Shown piece after piece: positions 2,344-30,227 of a stretch of 31,212 nt of DNA; position 1 is the stretch's first letter, and each line of letters starts with the position of its first letter. The stretch comes from a virus, in the IMG/VR virus record IMGVR_UViG_3300044302_003410, positions 1 to 31,212 of that record, one strand, 5' to 3'. Both the position numbers and the translations under genes were made by a program. The notes under the pieces are model-generated. The model had not been told where the DNA came from. It saw nothing but the letters and a program-made list of their open reading frames with translations, and made no database searches.

Positions 2344-3347
2344 GTTTTGGTGCAGGCGATAGTCCACAGAATACACAGTTTCAAACAACGTATCAACGTG
2401 ACGCGCCACAAATAGAAGCAGCTAAGCTAGGCTTAATGGATGCCGCAAAAGAATATACCATGTTTGGTATGAGTCCTTTTGAGGCTGTTGATCCAACTTT
2501 AAAACCTGGTGACGAAGGCTACGGCGAATACAAATACACTGGCACTGACGGCAAGTATGCTGAAGGCACAAAGTATTCTGATCTTACAAGAGAACAGAGA
2601 ATGCGTGAAGGACAAGTTGATATACCTACACAAGGTGTAGCAGAGTTTGATCCGTTACAACAACAAGCTTTTCAACAAGCACAAGCTGGTATTGGTGCAT
2701 ACCAACCTTTTTTAAACCAGTCAACACAACTAACACAATTAGCAACACAAGCATACGACCCTTCATCATACCAACAATACATGAATCCATTCCAAGATGA
2801 AGTTATTGCAGGCATAGAACAACAATTTGAAAAAGCTAGAAATCAAGCAGCAGCTGGTGCAGGAACACAGGGTGCTTTTGGCACAGAACGTGAAGGAATA
2901 CAACGTGCAGAATTAGATAGGCAACAAGCATTAGCTGTTGGATCTGCACAAGCACAAAATTACGGACAAGCGCAACAAATGGCGCAACAAAGATTTGACA
3001 ATCAAATGGGGAGATACGGAGCAGCAGCTCAACAAATGGCTGGTCTTGGTGGTCAAGTGCAACAACAAGGATTAACAGATATTGGATCTCTAATGTCTGC
3101 TGGTTCAATACAACAGCAACGTGAACAACAGTTAACGGATGCACAGTACCAACAACAGTTGCAACAAATTTATGAACCATACCAACGACTAGGATTTACT
3201 TCTGATATCTATCAAGGTAACGTACCATCTGGAGCCATGGCTATATCAATGGGAACTGCACCAGGCAGCAATCCATTGGCGCAGACTGTAGGAGCTGGAA
3301 TTTCAGGTCTCGCTGCATATCAGGGCTATCAAAACATGACAGGGTAG
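2340..3347 (+). CDS. Gln/Ala-rich putative virion protein (335 aa)
   Basis: The central part, residues ~90-290, is exceptionally rich in Gln and Ala and predicted to be long helices. It includes YMNPFQDEVIAGIEQQ followed by a GAFGTEREG segment. I recognise this combination (a YMNPY/F-Q-x-x-V start, then a GAFG loop) from virion proteins of marine phages, but no function is established. The last 40 residues are Gly/Ala-rich and weakly hydrophobic. Translation is coupled to the acetyltransferase gene (ATGA). Likely an internal virion or tail-associated protein. Confidence 0.7.
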   Translation: MSFGAGDSPQNTQFQTTYQRDAPQIEAAKLGLMDAAKEYTMFGMSPFEAVDPTLKPGDEGYGEYKYTGTDGKYAEGTKYSDLTREQRMREGQVDIPTQGVAEFDPLQQQAFQQAQAGIGAYQPFLNQSTQLTQLATQAYDPSSYQQYMNPFQDEVIAGIEQQFEKARNQAAAGAGTQGAFGTEREGIQRAELDRQQALAVGSAQAQNYGQAQQMAQQRFDNQMGRYGAAAQQMAGLGGQVQQQGLTDIGSLMSAGSIQQQREQQLTDAQYQQQLQQIYEPYQRLGFTSDIYQGNVPSGAMAISMGTAPGSNPLAQTVGAGISGLAAYQGYQNMTG

Positions 3348-3350
3348 GAA

Positions 3351-5297
3351 ATGAACCCATTTCTTCGACCATTATTTAAACCTATTATTAATAAAGCTGC
3401 AAGAGCTGCATACAAAATGCAAGGCACTGCAGAAGAAGCTGCCAGTAAAGCATTTGAAAAGGCTAGACCTTACGCAAAAAATTACATGGACGCTGCAGCT
3501 GGTAATCAAGGTAGATTTAAACAAGGTGTTGCACTAGGTGGACCACTAGCCGCTTACGGTGCTTTTCCGGAAAGAACTACTACGCCAGAAAGAGACGATG
3601 CAGTTAAACAAGAAGATCCAACAATTAAACCTCCAACACAAGAAGATGATATATTTGTAGATGAAAATCAAGAAAAAGTTTCTGAAGATATAGAAATAAG
3701 TGAAGAGGTAAATGCAACTAATGACCAAGCAGACAATGCAGAAGCTAATACAAAAGCTGTAGTAGATTCTACTAACGCATACGCAGGATTAATTGAGAAC
3801 GAAAGCCTTACAAGAATAGAAGGATATAAAGATATTATAAGACAGATAATGGGTGATGGTGACGGCGCACAACAAATGCAAAGCACTGCACTATTAATGC
3901 AACTAGGTTCAGCACTCATGTCCGGTAAGTCCTTGGACCCAGGTCTAAAAGGTTTTATGGACATTGTAGGACAAGCAGGAATGCAAGTTGCACCAACACT
4001 ATTCCAAATGGGTGTAGAAAAAGGCAAGGCGGAGCGTGAGATAGGAGCAGCAGCTCTTAACATGTACATGTCAGAGCTTGATAAAATGCAAGACAGAAGT
4101 GGACCTTTTACTGTTGTCTATGAAAATTTATACAAAACAGATAAAAATGGTCAAATGATATATGGGCCAAATGGTGATCCAGTTAAAACAGGGTCACGAA
4201 GAGTGCAAACTTTCTACCGTAAGAGTCCAGAGATACAAAACTTTATGAACATGAACAGTGAATTAGGATATGACAGATTTACATTTGTAGATACATCAGC
4301 ATCAAAAGAAGGAATGAATGTTGCTGGGTATGGTGGAGGCACTGCTACATTCCAAACTGACGCTGCACAAGCTGACCAATTAAAATATTCTAAATATTTA
4401 AAACGTACACTCGATACAATGGCTGATTACATTATGCCTATATTAATAGACCAGAAAGATGTAGTGGCAGGTGCAATTGGAGAGTTTGGTAGATACGTTG
4501 GACCTAAAATATCTTTGCTTAACCAAATAATGAGCACTGCTGTTAGTGAAAGTGGTGACTTAAAACAATTTGAAACACAAGCATTTGATTTTGCAAAAGA
4601 AATAACTGTACCAGAAAAAGCTACTTATCAAATGGATATAGGTGGTGGCACTACTATTGGTGTATTTGTAGACACAGGAAACAAGTACGGACAAAACGAA
4701 GGTGCTAGGTATTCTGATGATGGTAAAACAATGCTTGACCCAGGTACACCAGCAGAAATTGTAGTGTGGGATGACATGAAATTAATTCTTGAAAATCCTA
4801 ATCGTTCTGCATTAATGACTTTTGAAACAACACTTGGTCTTGCACTTGCAAGAGACAGACAGCCAACTGGTCGTATGTTAGCAGACGTTCTTCGTAGATC
4901 ATTTGCAGACACAAGAATGACTGGTTTTGGTGGCACGACATCTACTGATCCAAATCAAGTAATAGAAAACTATGCATTTATATTTAACCAATTATCTAGA
5001 AACATGGCTGGTGCTTTAGAAGGTGCAGGGTTGACAAGTGATTATGATAAATCACAACAGTTTGGATTAACATATGCACCTGATGATTTTAAAATTAAAG
5101 GTATAGATAAATTTGCTAACTCTTATTATATGCTTAGACAAAACGATAAAACAAATTTCTTTAAGCATGATATTGTAGGTGCAGAGTTGTATGGTGCATA
5201 CGCACAATCAATAAAAGGTGGTTTAAACGCTGACCACAATGAAAACAAACAAAGTAGTGAAGATATTAAAAACAGTTACTTGGAGCAACTTGAATAA
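3351..5297 (+). CDS. Large putative virion protein (648 aa), possibly ejected
   Basis: The N-terminal ~75 residues hold a basic amphipathic segment, RPYAK and RFKQGVALGGPLAAYGA, resembling the basic protein at 1541-1888. Residues ~80-130 are an acidic low-complexity linker. The rest looks globular, with no enzymatic motif I recognise. It ends in the last bases before the next start (TAATG). Size, position and the N-terminal membrane-like module fit an internal or DNA-ejection protein of a short-tailed phage, which is inference. Confidence 0.7.
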   Translation: MNPFLRPLFKPIINKAARAAYKMQGTAEEAASKAFEKARPYAKNYMDAAAGNQGRFKQGVALGGPLAAYGAFPERTTTPERDDAVKQEDPTIKPPTQEDDIFVDENQEKVSEDIEISEEVNATNDQADNAEANTKAVVDSTNAYAGLIENESLTRIEGYKDIIRQIMGDGDGAQQMQSTALLMQLGSALMSGKSLDPGLKGFMDIVGQAGMQVAPTLFQMGVEKGKAEREIGAAALNMYMSELDKMQDRSGPFTVVYENLYKTDKNGQMIYGPNGDPVKTGSRRVQTFYRKSPEIQNFMNMNSELGYDRFTFVDTSASKEGMNVAGYGGGTATFQTDAAQADQLKYSKYLKRTLDTMADYIMPILIDQKDVVAGAIGEFGRYVGPKISLLNQIMSTAVSESGDLKQFETQAFDFAKEITVPEKATYQMDIGGGTTIGVFVDTGNKYGQNEGARYSDDGKTMLDPGTPAEIVVWDDMKLILENPNRSALMTFETTLGLALARDRQPTGRMLADVLRRSFADTRMTGFGGTTSTDPNQVIENYAFIFNQLSRNMAGALEGAGLTSDYDKSQQFGLTYAPDDFKIKGIDKFANSYYMLRQNDKTNFFKHDIVGAELYGAYAQSIKGGLNADHNENKQSSEDIKNSYLEQLE

Positions 5298-17423: not shown

Positions 17424-19269
17424 AAAAGACGAAGTAAAAGCAGAGTGGTTGCATCCCACAGAAACACCTTCAATGAAGGGTAAAGACGTGGTAGCAATTG
17501 ACTTGGAAACGTGTGATACAGAGTTAAAAAAGATGGGTCCTGGTTGGCCTAGAAAAATTGGATCTGTTATAGGTATTGCTATATCCAGTGGTGACTTTAC
17601 TGCTTATTATCCTATAGCGCACGAAGGTGGTGGTAACATGGATAAATCAATTATCGTAGAGTATATTAAAGAAGTGTGTGAAGATGAGTCTATACAAAAA
17701 GTATTTCACAATGCACAGTATGACATTGGATGGTTATCTACTTTAGGTATAGAGGTAAAAGGTTACATACATGACACTATGATAGCTGCTGCATTATTAA
17801 ATGAGAATAGATATTCTTTTACATTAAATAGCATGGTAGCAGAGTATTTAGGTGAGTTTAAAAATGAATCATTATTAAAAGCGAAAGCAGAAGAATTGGG
17901 GTTAGACCCTAAAGCTGATATGTATAAAATGCACGCATCATTTGTTGGGGAGTATGCAGAAGCAGACGCTAAATTGACATGGCGTTTACACGAAAGATTT
18001 ATTACTGAAATAGAAAAAGAAGATTTAACAAAAGTATATGATGTAGAATGCAGATTAATACGTGTTATATTTAACATGACTAAACGTGGTGTACGCGTAG
18101 ACATGGAGAAAGCATTTGGTCTTAAAAAGAAATTACTTAACAAAGAAAAACAATACTTAAAAAGAATAAAAGATTTAGTAGGTCAAGATGTACAAATCAA
18201 TGCAGCACGGTCTGTGGCCCAGGCATTTGATAGTGTTAATTTAGAATATCCTAGAACAGCACTTGGAGCTCCTAGTTTTACACAAACATTTCTTGAAACA
18301 CATGCACATGAATTACCACGCATGATAACAAAGGCACGTGTGTTAAACAAACTACAAGGAACATTTGTTGATGGTGTAGCTAAATATGTACACAATGGTA
18401 GATTACATGCACATATAAACCAGATACGTGGCGATAATGGTGGCACAGTGACAGGTAGGTTTTCTATGTACGCTCCTAATTTACAACAGATGCCTATAAG
18501 AAATGAATATGGATCAGAGTTACGTAAAATATTTATACCAGAGCAAGGAGAGTATTGGTTGTCTGCTGACTATTCACAACAAGAACCTAGAATATTGACA
18601 CATTTTGCCATATTAAATAAAAATGCAGGCGCAGAAGAAGTGCAACAAGCATTTGTAAAAGGATTAGACTTTCATAAACAAACAGCAGAGATGGCAGGAA
18701 TTGATCGTAGACTAGCTAAAACAATAGGTTTAGGGGTAATGTATGGCATGGGGTATAAAAAGATGGCTGTGGACCTAGATATAGCTCCTATGGAGGCAAA
18801 AGAAATGTTAAAAGAGTTTAGAGAAAAAGTTCCGTTTATGCAGGGTATGTTAGAGGCTGTAATGAATCGTGCAAACCAAATAGGATCTGTAAGAACATAT
18901 TTAGGACGTAGATGTAAATTTGATCTATGGGAGCCCTCTTGGTACGAAGCTGGTGTATTTCATAAAGCATTACCACACAATGAAGCAACAACAAAATGGG
19001 GTGGTTCTATAAAAAGAGCTGGCACATATAAGGCATTGAATAGGTTAATACAGGGCACAGCTGCTGATCAAACTAAAAAAGCCATGGTTGATATATACGA
19101 ACAATTGGGTATAATACCGCTTATACAGGTTCATGATGAGTTGAATTGTAGTGTAAAATCTGATAAAGAGGCAAAAGAAATAAAAGATATGATGGAAACA
19201 TGTATAGATTTAAAAGTGCCTTCTAATGTTGATTACAAAATTAAGGATAACTGGGGAGATGCCAAGTGA
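17404..19269 (+). CDS. polA: DNA polymerase I (family A, T7-type, with 3'-5' exonuclease)
   Basis: 621 residues, the short phage size. The proofreading domain keeps its metal ligands: AIDLET (Asp33, Glu35), FHNAQYDIGWL (Exo II) and EYAEADAKLTW (Exo III, YxxxD). The polymerase domain has motif A LSADYSQQEPR (Asp near 388), motif B RRLAKTIGLGVMYG (~434-448) and motif C QVHDE (near 577). There is no 5'-nuclease domain. This is the replicative polymerase. The symbol refers to the family. AGGAGA precedes the ATG, and the stop overlaps the next gene by GTGA. Confidence 0.95.
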   Translation: MNQDLFRKDEVKAEWLHPTETPSMKGKDVVAIDLETCDTELKKMGPGWPRKIGSVIGIAISSGDFTAYYPIAHEGGGNMDKSIIVEYIKEVCEDESIQKVFHNAQYDIGWLSTLGIEVKGYIHDTMIAAALLNENRYSFTLNSMVAEYLGEFKNESLLKAKAEELGLDPKADMYKMHASFVGEYAEADAKLTWRLHERFITEIEKEDLTKVYDVECRLIRVIFNMTKRGVRVDMEKAFGLKKKLLNKEKQYLKRIKDLVGQDVQINAARSVAQAFDSVNLEYPRTALGAPSFTQTFLETHAHELPRMITKARVLNKLQGTFVDGVAKYVHNGRLHAHINQIRGDNGGTVTGRFSMYAPNLQQMPIRNEYGSELRKIFIPEQGEYWLSADYSQQEPRILTHFAILNKNAGAEEVQQAFVKGLDFHKQTAEMAGIDRRLAKTIGLGVMYGMGYKKMAVDLDIAPMEAKEMLKEFREKVPFMQGMLEAVMNRANQIGSVRTYLGRRCKFDLWEPSWYEAGVFHKALPHNEATTKWGGSIKRAGTYKALNRLIQGTAADQTKKAMVDIYEQLGIIPLIQVHDELNCSVKSDKEAKEIKDMMETCIDLKVPSNVDYKIKDNWGDAK

Positions 19270-20336
19270 GCATAAATAAAGAAACAAGGAAAAAAAGATT
19301 AGAGAATAAAAAGAATAGCTTTGCTATTAATCCGGAGCAGATGGAATTTGAAAGAAGAAAAGTACTTGAACAAATGTCTACGAAAATTGATCGTAAAAAG
19401 CTCAACAATATGGCAGCAGTTGCGGCGACAAAAGAACCAGAGTACTTTGACGAAGAAGGAAACAAACGCGAACCGACGATGCGCATATTATCACTCGGGG
19501 CAGGGGTACAGTCTTCCTGTTTGGCACTCATGGCGCAAGAAGGATTAACAAAACATAAACCAGACTACATGATATTTGCAGACACTGGGTGGGAACCTAA
19601 GTTTGTGTATGAACATGTAGAATATTTAAAGAAAGCAATAACAATTTGTCCGCTGATCACTGTGGAAAGAGGTAACATCCGCGAGGATCTTATCAAAGCA
19701 GCGAACCCAGAACCAGGGTCTAGAGAAGAGGAAAAATCGTTTGCTGGACGTGTACCAAACCCACCGTTGTTTGCTGCTCGTCCTGGTGGAAGAGTAGGAA
19801 TGCTTTATCGTCAGTGTACACATGATTATAAAGTTATTCCTATTCAAAAAAAGATTAGAGAGTTGTTAGGTATTAAACCACGACACCGTGTTAAGAAAGG
19901 CATGTTGGTTGAACAGTGGATTGGTATATCTACCGACGAGGCTATGCGTATGAAAAACGCTAGGCTACCATGGTTAACATCACGTTGGCCTTTAATAGAA
20001 ATGAAGATGTCTCGTATGGATTGTCTTCAGTGGTATCGTGATATTAAAAAACACCCTATGCCAGGTAAATCATCGTGCATAGGGTGCCCTTATCATCATA
20101 ACGACCAATGGAAAAACATGCAAAAGAATTATCCGGAAGATTTTGCAGATGCATGTGAAGTTGATGATAAGATTAGACATGGTTTAAAGAATACAACATC
20201 AGAATTGTTTTTGCACAAATCAGCAAAACCACTTCGCGATATAGATTTCTTGGAACCAAAAAAACAAGCTTCATTATTTGGCGAAACATTCGATGAGGAA
20301 TTTGCCGATGAGTGTGAAGGATTATGTGGAGTATAG
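19266..20336 (+). CDS. PP-loop ATPase, PAPS-reductase-like (adenine nucleotide alpha-hydrolase family)
   Basis: 356 residues, GTG start with GGGGAG upstream. After ~70 charged residues comes the PP-loop, LSLGAGVQSS (75-84), then FADTGWEP and the Cys residues RQCTHDYK (Cys184), Cys253 and SSCIGCPYHH (Cys271, Cys274). Four such cysteines could hold an iron-sulfur cluster or carry sulfur. The family activates substrates with ATP. CysH-type members reduce PAPS; DndC-type and tRNA-thiolation members move sulfur onto nucleic acid. The LSLGAGVQSS version is frequent in phages and not assigned. The nearby sufE-like gene supports a sulfur-transfer role. Confidence 0.85.
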   Translation: MSINKETRKKRLENKKNSFAINPEQMEFERRKVLEQMSTKIDRKKLNNMAAVAATKEPEYFDEEGNKREPTMRILSLGAGVQSSCLALMAQEGLTKHKPDYMIFADTGWEPKFVYEHVEYLKKAITICPLITVERGNIREDLIKAANPEPGSREEEKSFAGRVPNPPLFAARPGGRVGMLYRQCTHDYKVIPIQKKIRELLGIKPRHRVKKGMLVEQWIGISTDEAMRMKNARLPWLTSRWPLIEMKMSRMDCLQWYRDIKKHPMPGKSSCIGCPYHHNDQWKNMQKNYPEDFADACEVDDKIRHGLKNTTSELFLHKSAKPLRDIDFLEPKKQASLFGETFDEEFADECEGLCGV

Positions 20337-25555: not shown

Positions 25556-25602
25556 GTTTTTTCTTGACACGATTTGCCGCAGAAATCTGCGAAATAATGT
25601 TC

Positions 25603-25631
25603 TTGTAATGTTTTGGTAAAAATGGTATAAT
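25603..25631 (+). promoter_or_regulatory. Rightward sigma70 promoter of the structured RNA and small-gene operon
   Basis: TTGTAA (25603-25608), 17-bp spacer, TATAAT (25626-25631). It has the same hexamers and spacing as the replication promoter at 12097-12125. Transcription should start near 25638, just before the folded RNA. Confidence 0.6.
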
Positions 25632-25637
25632 ACACGT

Positions 25638-25820
25638 AAATGAGGATGGTGCAACATTCTCCGAGTATGGCTGAACAACAGTCTCCAGGTTGTAAGGCAC
25701 GGCTCTCACAAGGTATGGTCGAATGACTGAGGGTGTGAGGGTTGGTACTGAAGTACTTGTTAGCATAGGAAATGTTGACTGGACGGGAAAAGGTTGGGGG
25801 TAGTCAAAGAACCCCCCTAC
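25638..25820 (+). ncRNA. Structured RNA of unknown class (small RNA or leader)
   Basis: Directly after a strong promoter, the RNA can fold into nested helices. P1 is CAACATT (25652-25658) with AATGTTG (25771-25777). P2 is 25666-25674 with 25760-25767, 8 pairs with one bulged G. P3 is ACAAC/GTTGT (25675-25693). P4 is a 6-bp core CTCACA/TGTGAG (25705-25739), extendable by G-U pairs and topped by GGTC/GACT. P5 is GTAC-TGAA-GTAC (25745-25756). A GGGGGT/ACCCCC hairpin follows (25796-25816). No tRNA, tmRNA, RNase P, 6S or known riboswitch signature is recognised. It may be a free RNA or the leader of the gene at 25837. Confidence 0.55.
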
Positions 25821-25836
25821 TCAAAAAGAAATTATT

Positions 25837-26076
25837 ATGATGAGTCAAAAAGCAATACACACCTGGTTAAATAAATCTAACAAAGGTGATAAGATAACAT
25901 ATTACCGCGGTTACTTATGTGATCCTTTTCTACAGCCAATAGCGCCAACAAATGATCGTGATCGCGTAAAAAAATTAGGCAGCACAGTTTATTCTATGGC
26001 AGATAATGGTTTGTTATTATTAGTGCAAAAGAAACACGCTGACTTTGATTATGAATACATAGCGATACGCACATGA
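25837..26076 (+). CDS. Small phage protein (79 aa), first gene of the operon
   Basis: A soluble alpha/beta protein: KAIHTWLNKSNKGDKITYYRG at the N-terminus, a basic patch (RDRVKKLG), then LLLLVQKKH and a C-terminal strand. It has the look of a small nucleic-acid-binding or regulatory protein, but no motif proves it. ATG at 25840 is an equally good start. Its mRNA would carry the structured RNA as leader. It overlaps the next gene by ATGA. Confidence 0.65.
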   Translation: MMSQKAIHTWLNKSNKGDKITYYRGYLCDPFLQPIAPTNDRDRVKKLGSTVYSMADNGLLLLVQKKHADFDYEYIAIRT

Positions 26077-29209: not shown

Positions 29210-29238
29210 TTGACATGTGGATAACTTTCTGCTATAAT
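29210..29238 (+). promoter_or_regulatory. Perfect consensus sigma70 promoter with a DnaA box in its spacer
   Basis: TTGACA (29210-29215), 17-bp spacer, TATAAT (29233-29238), identical to consensus in both hexamers. The spacer begins with TGTGGATAA. It drives the small gene at 29270. Confidence 0.75.
29216..29224 (-). promoter_or_regulatory. DnaA box 1
   Basis: TGTGGATAA, the exact complement of the strong DnaA box TTATCCACA, placed inside a promoter spacer. Confidence 0.6.
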
Positions 29239-29565: not shown

Positions 29566-29832
29566 ATCCCGTTAACCTAAAAAGTTTTTTCGTGGTTTTC
29601 CGCCATTATTTTTCGAAGCATGACTGTTGACAGACGCTTCCAGATGGGATACACCTGAAGATAGAATGAGAAAGAGAGGTAAATATGGACTGACTAATGC
29701 TACTTATACCTGTAAAATTGGCGGTTTTCTGCCTTTTGGCATGGTACATATTAATATACTAAACAGCTGCGTAGCTGCAGCAGGAGATGCAGGTACTGCT
29801 GGTCAGTAGCTGCCAGGCAGCAGGAGCTGCTG

Positions 29833-30032: not shown

Positions 30033-30038
30033 AAGAAT

Positions 30039-30156
30039 AGTTAACTAAGAGGCATGGTAGTTATATCTGTAAGCCCTCGCAAAAAAGGGAAGTCGTGAAC
30101 ACTAACCTAGAGTTAGTGGGGAAACTTCTAAGAATACCTAAAGCCTTCTTCCCTTA
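30039..30156 (+). ncRNA. Candidate small RNA with two alternative folds
   Basis: Predicted transcript from the promoter at 30004-30032. A perfect hairpin CACTAAC-CTAGA-GTTAGTG (30100-30118) is enclosed either by AAGGGAAG/CTTCCCTT (30085-30092 with 30148-30155) or by the shorter GAAGT/ACTTC (30089-30093 with 30124-30128). These two cannot form together. No protein gene of useful size is present. It ends at repeat copy 5. Type unknown. Confidence 0.4.
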
Positions 30157-30227
30157 AAACTCCCAAGCTCCCTAACAACCAACACAACTAGTAGCTGAAG
30201 CTCCCACGTTTATACACCGGGCGCCCG
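30157..30227 (+). repeat. 75-nt element, copy 5
   Basis: AAACTCCCAAGCTCC (30157-30171, one change) to CCGGGCGCCCG (30217-30227). The 12 bases TACACCGGGCGC at the right end are identical to copy 4. Confidence 0.55.

Follow-up and report, generated by a model that had tools for sequence, protein, structure and literature searches.

A distant, unannotated relative of manA RNA between a promoter and a phage gene

Results

Promoter, RNA and first gene

The window, which is the whole stretch of 31,212 nucleotides of viral DNA analysed here (IMG/VR record IMGVR_UViG_3300044302_003410), contains on its + strand a sigma-70-type promoter, an RNA of about 180 nt and a short gene, in that order. The promoter, TTGTAA-N17-TATAAT at 25603-25631, is present as claimed in a preliminary description of this DNA, and the TG preceding its -10 box makes it of the extended -10 kind. 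The RNA spans approximately 25642-25822, and the first open reading frame (ORF) after it, of 79 amino acids, occupies 25837-26076, with its start codon at 25837. This gene has relatives at 36 viral loci; its product gave no match in Pfam or PHROG, hence none to a single-strand-binding protein (SSB), and its predicted fold, of moderate confidence (pLDDT 75), found no significant match in the PDB.

Promoters, terminators and ORFs were predicted from sequence. The bare promoter pattern occurs at chance level in the window (35 promoter-like sites, against 39.5 expected from shuffles), and the single-sequence folding energy of the RNA is unremarkable (z -1.79, with 12 of 200 shuffles equally good). 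Since promoter-like strings are no rarer than chance in this AT-rich DNA and the fold barely beats shuffles, the case rests on comparison with relatives, for which sites drawn at random from one strand of the same contigs served as controls. A promoter scoring at least 9/12 lies just upstream in 64 of the 98 distinct RNA copies, compared with 31 of 260 random sites; an ORF follows within 60 nt in 77 copies versus 101 of the 260 sites, and a terminator behind a single copy versus five sites. The ORF usually starts about 20 nt past the RNA, usually with a ribosome-binding site between them; for about one fifth of the copies no ORF begins in the 60 nt past the RNA, the gene lying 74-110 nt away in the gp32 copies. 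No tRNA was found near the RNA at 107 copies of this branch. With a promoter before it, an ORF after it and no terminator between, the RNA is most likely the leader of the operon at 25837, one of the two roles that had been suggested for it.

A palindrome, GCCGCAGAAATCTGCGAAATAA, lies immediately 5' of the promoter at 25576-25597, and it may be an operator, since related versions (for example GGCGGAAAACAGCC) hold the equivalent place in relatives; a second exact GCNGAAANCNGC site is found at 29721-29732. Elsewhere in the window, a perfect TTGACA-N17-TATAAT at 29210-29238 precedes a 70-aa ORF, another promoter-linked stretch, at 30036-30165, folds no better than shuffles, and a phosphoadenosine phosphosulfate reductase-like phage gene occupies 19266-20336 (PHROG E 5e-47).

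Relatives of the RNA

The core pattern GGCUGAACAAC-N-GUAARGC was found in at least 120 viral stretches, nearly all with a spacing of 30 nt, and 131 full-length copies were kept, 87 of them below 93% identity. These fall into types: type A is window-like, with the closing stem GAGUA/UACUC, while types B and C have many other closing stems and an additional helix, P0, the gp32-linked copies belonging to type C. Among the pattern matches in cellular genomes only two were real copies (L361 and L385), the former accompanied by phage-type terminase and resolvase/helicase genes. Phage 023Pt_psg01, the nearest named relative by DNA polymerase, carries an isolated copy, encoded on the other strand from its genes.

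Covariation defines the fold

In an alignment of 57 diverse sequences (A2), 85.3% of cells are paired over the 43 proposed pairs, compared with 64.7% after shuffling, and covariation reaches 0.530 against 0.157 for shuffled alignments (0 of 500 shuffles) and 0.146 at most for slid pairings. This strong covariation, seen in homologues with no conserved reading frame, bears out the multibranched RNA and the terminal GC hairpin that had been claimed for the locus. The closing helix had been misplaced: the 7-bp stem put forward, 25652-25658/25771-25777, is paired in 48.4% of cells versus 45.7% after shuffling and is thus unsupported. The true partner of 25655-25661 is 25642-25648, with which it forms the hairpin P1 (25642-25661), and the real closing stem, PC, joins GAGUA at 25663-25667 to UACUC at 25818-25822.

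P1 is kept in relatives with changed letters (GTCGATG/CATTGAC and GTCGGTG/CACTGAC, for instance); it is paired in 60% of cells of A2, where it aligns poorly because its register varies among subtypes. PC is paired in 97.5% of cells, with compensation at all five pairs (CCUCC/GGAGG, CUCUC/GAGAG, GUUUA/UAAAC, GCGUA/UACGC and GAGCA/UGCUC replace the window's letters). Its permutation z is 9.5, a value which, like the other permutation z-scores below, is an upper bound on surprise, since the tests took one row per distinct strand and ignored relatedness, and related sequences are not independent. PC is nested and closes the core, which begins with P2 (25669-25698; pairs 25670-71/25697-98 and 25676-79/25689-92), whose sequence, GGCUGAACAAC...GUAAGGC, is nearly invariant in A2. 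The stem-loop P4/P5 follows at 25701-25742 (25701-25710/25734-25742, inner helix 25717-25720/25725-25728) and also covaries, with ten of ten P4 pairs compensated and 88% of cells paired, and P5 paired in 100%. P6, a small GUAC-UGAA-GUAC hairpin at 25745-25756, is paired in 72.8% of cells, varies little and is absent from the gp32-type branch, and the GC hairpin P8 (25796-25817; 25796-25800/25813-25817) is paired in 99.3%. Across the copies the long invariant stretches are GGCUGAACAAC, GUAAGGC and GGUUG. Outside these helices, P0 encloses the RNA in types B and C (z 10.3, 0 of 1000 permutations), usually starting a few bases past the -10 box; in the window's own type it is not present (z 1.0).

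Between P6 and P8 the permutation tests detect two pairings that draw on one strand. The hairpin P7 (25759-25779; 25759-25766/25772-25779) has z 9.6 over all types and z 4.0-5.5 in types B and C alone. The only pseudoknot of the fold pairs UUGACUG at 25775-25781, overlapping the 3' strand of P7, with the P8 loop at 25801-25807 (z 7.7, 0 of 2000), as UUGAC/GUCAA, CAUGAU/GUCAUG, UGUGAU/GUCACA, AUUGG/CCAAU or UGGAU/AUCCA in different copies. In 71 of 78 copies the two share 2 nt or more, and the window's duplex energies for them lie close together (-6.2 kcal/mol for P7, -5.7 kcal/mol for the pseudoknot). Since 25775-25779 serves both, P7 and the pseudoknot compete, although the two could form together if P7 opened at its ends only.

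A coding region at this place was ruled out, as ORFs across it are not conserved and the relatives differ by indels and by compensatory changes. An anti-Shine-Dalgarno switch was also rejected: by inspection, no pairing of the RNA with a Shine-Dalgarno sequence is conserved, and the Shine-Dalgarno-like letters in some closing stems and in P1 are not kept across types.

A divergent branch of manA

Since 2010 manA RNA has stood as an orphan riboswitch candidate. In the window none of the Rfam families attains its gathering score; when 601 nt were searched against 4227 families with the threshold lifted, manA (RF01745) matched 25642-25827 co-linearly over its full length (model positions 1-192) with 30.6 bits and E 4.4e-6, against a gathering score of 55.2 bits, and the runner-up lay on the reverse strand (E 0.011). 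The earlier view that the RNA belongs to no known class therefore fails, the RNA being distantly related to manA. Nine of the 37 records with the downstream ORF match manA at 36-41 bits (the best at 40.7, none above 55.2), with per-record E values of 7e-12 to 6e-10 for relatives of the window, and the annotated manA of S-CREM1, taken as a positive control, scores 96.6 bits. One contig (L314) links the two groups because it matches both models, RF01745 with 59.5 bits, above the cut-off, and R1, a model built from the window's branch, with 24.8 bits (E 4e-4). R1 misses most manA copies, which makes the window's group a distinct branch. By the criterion of the preliminary description, the Rfam match takes away most of the novelty at the level of a class; what is left is a branch of manA that is large, lacks annotation and differs in structure. 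On L314 a tmRNA-like gene of the permuted (two-piece) family is also present, at 3137-3435 on the - strand (88.6 bits).

The two branches have much in common: a 5' hairpin, a 5-bp closing stem, the CUGAA..UAAGG core of P2 (CUGAAUAA...UAAGG in manA), a long middle domain, P7, P8 with a similar loop, a P7-P8 loop contact, a short gap to a phage gene, and occurrence in marine phages. In both, the closing stem joins the 5' region to a strand past P8, as GAGUA/UACUC in the window and GGGAG/CUCCC in manA. They differ in the middle domain, which in manA is a three-hairpin junction and in the window the single P4/P5 stem-loop with the small P6; the interior of the manA model remains unaligned in the window, and P4/P5 covaries instead. 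Types B and C carry the additional P0, unlike manA, and the window's branch occurs in phages of SAR11-like hosts, not in cyanophages alone. The partner of the P8 loop differs as well, being the 3' strand of P7 in the window's branch and the apical loop of P7 in manA. In manA proper the P7 and P8 loops match each other (z 3.8, 1 of 2000), and this contact is probably the one marked 'pseudoknot?' in the 2010 description of the family (PMC2864571). A CaCoFold structure of the original manA alignment contains, according to Rfam 14, 48 significant pairs (PMC7779021).

Genes behind the RNA

Downstream proteins of the window's branch fall into 27 families, including gp32 (Pfam gp32, E 5e-44; behind ten copies), a gp2.5-like SSB and a helix-turn-helix protein; for a 288-aa protein behind another copy (L206) structure prediction failed (pLDDT 35). 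The RNA is missing from three relatives (L017, L021 and L022) whose promoter is of like kind and whose gene is the same; R1 finds no match there. In a fourth, the leader retains only a P4/P5-like hairpin on a longer stem (L023:841-879, 21.5 bits to R1), a hint that the hairpin may be functional as a unit. These four loci show the RNA to be an optional cassette, placed between promoter and ribosome-binding site. At L018, L023, L024, L029, L030 and L169 further, different hairpin modules are present after the RNA and ahead of the ribosome-binding site, so the leader is assembled from exchangeable pieces.

In manA proper a terminator comes soon after 21 of 88 copies, and the gene found most often behind the RNA is gp32 (20 of 75). 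A recurrent terminator hairpin, (A)AGACCTAAGATGCAACT...GGGGCAGA(T/G)GGTCTT, follows manA at L249, L251, L262, L281 and L288, and in some loci it stands directly before an ORF.

Discussion

This RNA is almost certainly a real structured RNA related to manA, and its structure is well supported by the comparison of related sequences. As to its function, we put at roughly 60% the probability that it acts mainly in cis, as a gene-independent leader at the 5' end of a phage operon transcript. The 27 unrelated downstream families, together with the absence of the RNA from relatives that keep the same gene, argue for an exchangeable cassette rather than for feedback by a single gene product. Host RNA polymerase would start just upstream of P1, and the leader would fold as it is transcribed and act on the mRNA that it heads. 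The strand 25775-25779 would pair alternately within P7 or with the P8 loop, and this exchange, beside PC, which borders on the ribosome-binding site, would alter translation or stability of the transcript. That the exchange is a working switch is a tentative proposal, somewhat short of an even chance. Wider still, and doubtful, is the idea that the whole manA superfamily is a gene-independent device, set by marine phages at the 5' end of operons and based on strand exchange between P7 and the pseudoknot, that senses the general state of the infected cell or acts on polymerase or ribosome. Against the leader reading itself stand the score of the window below the manA cut-off, the failure of R1 to recover most manA copies, the fifth of copies without a nearby ORF and the stand-alone copy of 023Pt_psg01.

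That copy leads to the main rival, a stand-alone function, in which a phage small RNA, acting in trans or sufficient in itself, has its own promoter and the downstream genes are merely co-transcribed in packed genomes. In 023Pt_psg01 promoter and RNA are followed by a gene in antisense, with no same-strand ORF annotated, the manA copy of S-CREM1 sits between two tRNA genes, the downstream genes are unrelated, and 11 of the manA-proper copies with an intrinsic terminator have no ORF within 80 nt. In the window's branch, however, terminators and neighbouring tRNAs are virtually missing and an ORF usually begins about 20 nt beyond the RNA, so that we regard a small RNA as possible but on the unlikely side. 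The ten manA copies with a terminator between RNA and gene bear on a different proposal, an RNA-only antitermination element like HK022 put, whose nascent RNA would bind polymerase and allow read-through; the position at or near +1 at the head of phage operons, whatever the gene, would suit it too, but with no terminator close behind the RNA in the window's branch we consider it quite improbable. HK022 putRNA (PMC9378689) is likewise a promoter-proximal and gene-independent phage RNA.

A passive, non-regulatory 5' shield, protecting the mRNA end from decay or serving as a ribosome standby site, would fit P0, which in types B and C seals the RNA from just past the -10 box to its end, and the frequent location upstream of probably abundant SSBs (gp32, gp2.5-like). 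It is improbable given that P0 is absent from the window's own type and that invariant stretches and two covarying, competing pairings exceed what a shield needs. The prominence of gp32, behind manA proper and behind some copies of the window's branch, also brings to mind the T4 gene 32 operator, in which an unstructured UUAAA comes after a pseudoknot (PMC535899). Both are pseudoknotted phage mRNA leaders, but they differ in size, fold and downstream gene: the T4 pseudoknot is about 28 nt long, far smaller than the window's fold, the gene in the window is not gp32, and most downstream genes are not SSBs. An operator of this type, bound by the phage SSB, therefore receives hardly any credence from us. 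The wcaG RNA (RF01761), which lies near manA in S-CREM1, is likewise a phage-carried candidate regulatory RNA; its fold differs, and the window gives no match to it.

For manA, the leader reading aside, what is new is a large set of homologues with strong covariation for the pseudoknot, a second pairing that competes with it and the outer helix P0. Marine phages commonly carry this previously missed branch of the family. One of them, HTVC008M, infects bacteria of the abundant SAR11 group and forms with its host Ca. Pelagibacter HTCC1062 a cultured pair carrying a testable copy. A published Riboswitch Scanner search of pelagimyophages found no such RNA (PMC7029224). In HTVC008M (KC465899) the copy lies at 5030-5218, upstream of gp32, and scores 156.6 bits. 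It is overlapped by the annotated coding sequence 4993-5163 (AGE60342.1, hypothetical protein), which may be spurious.
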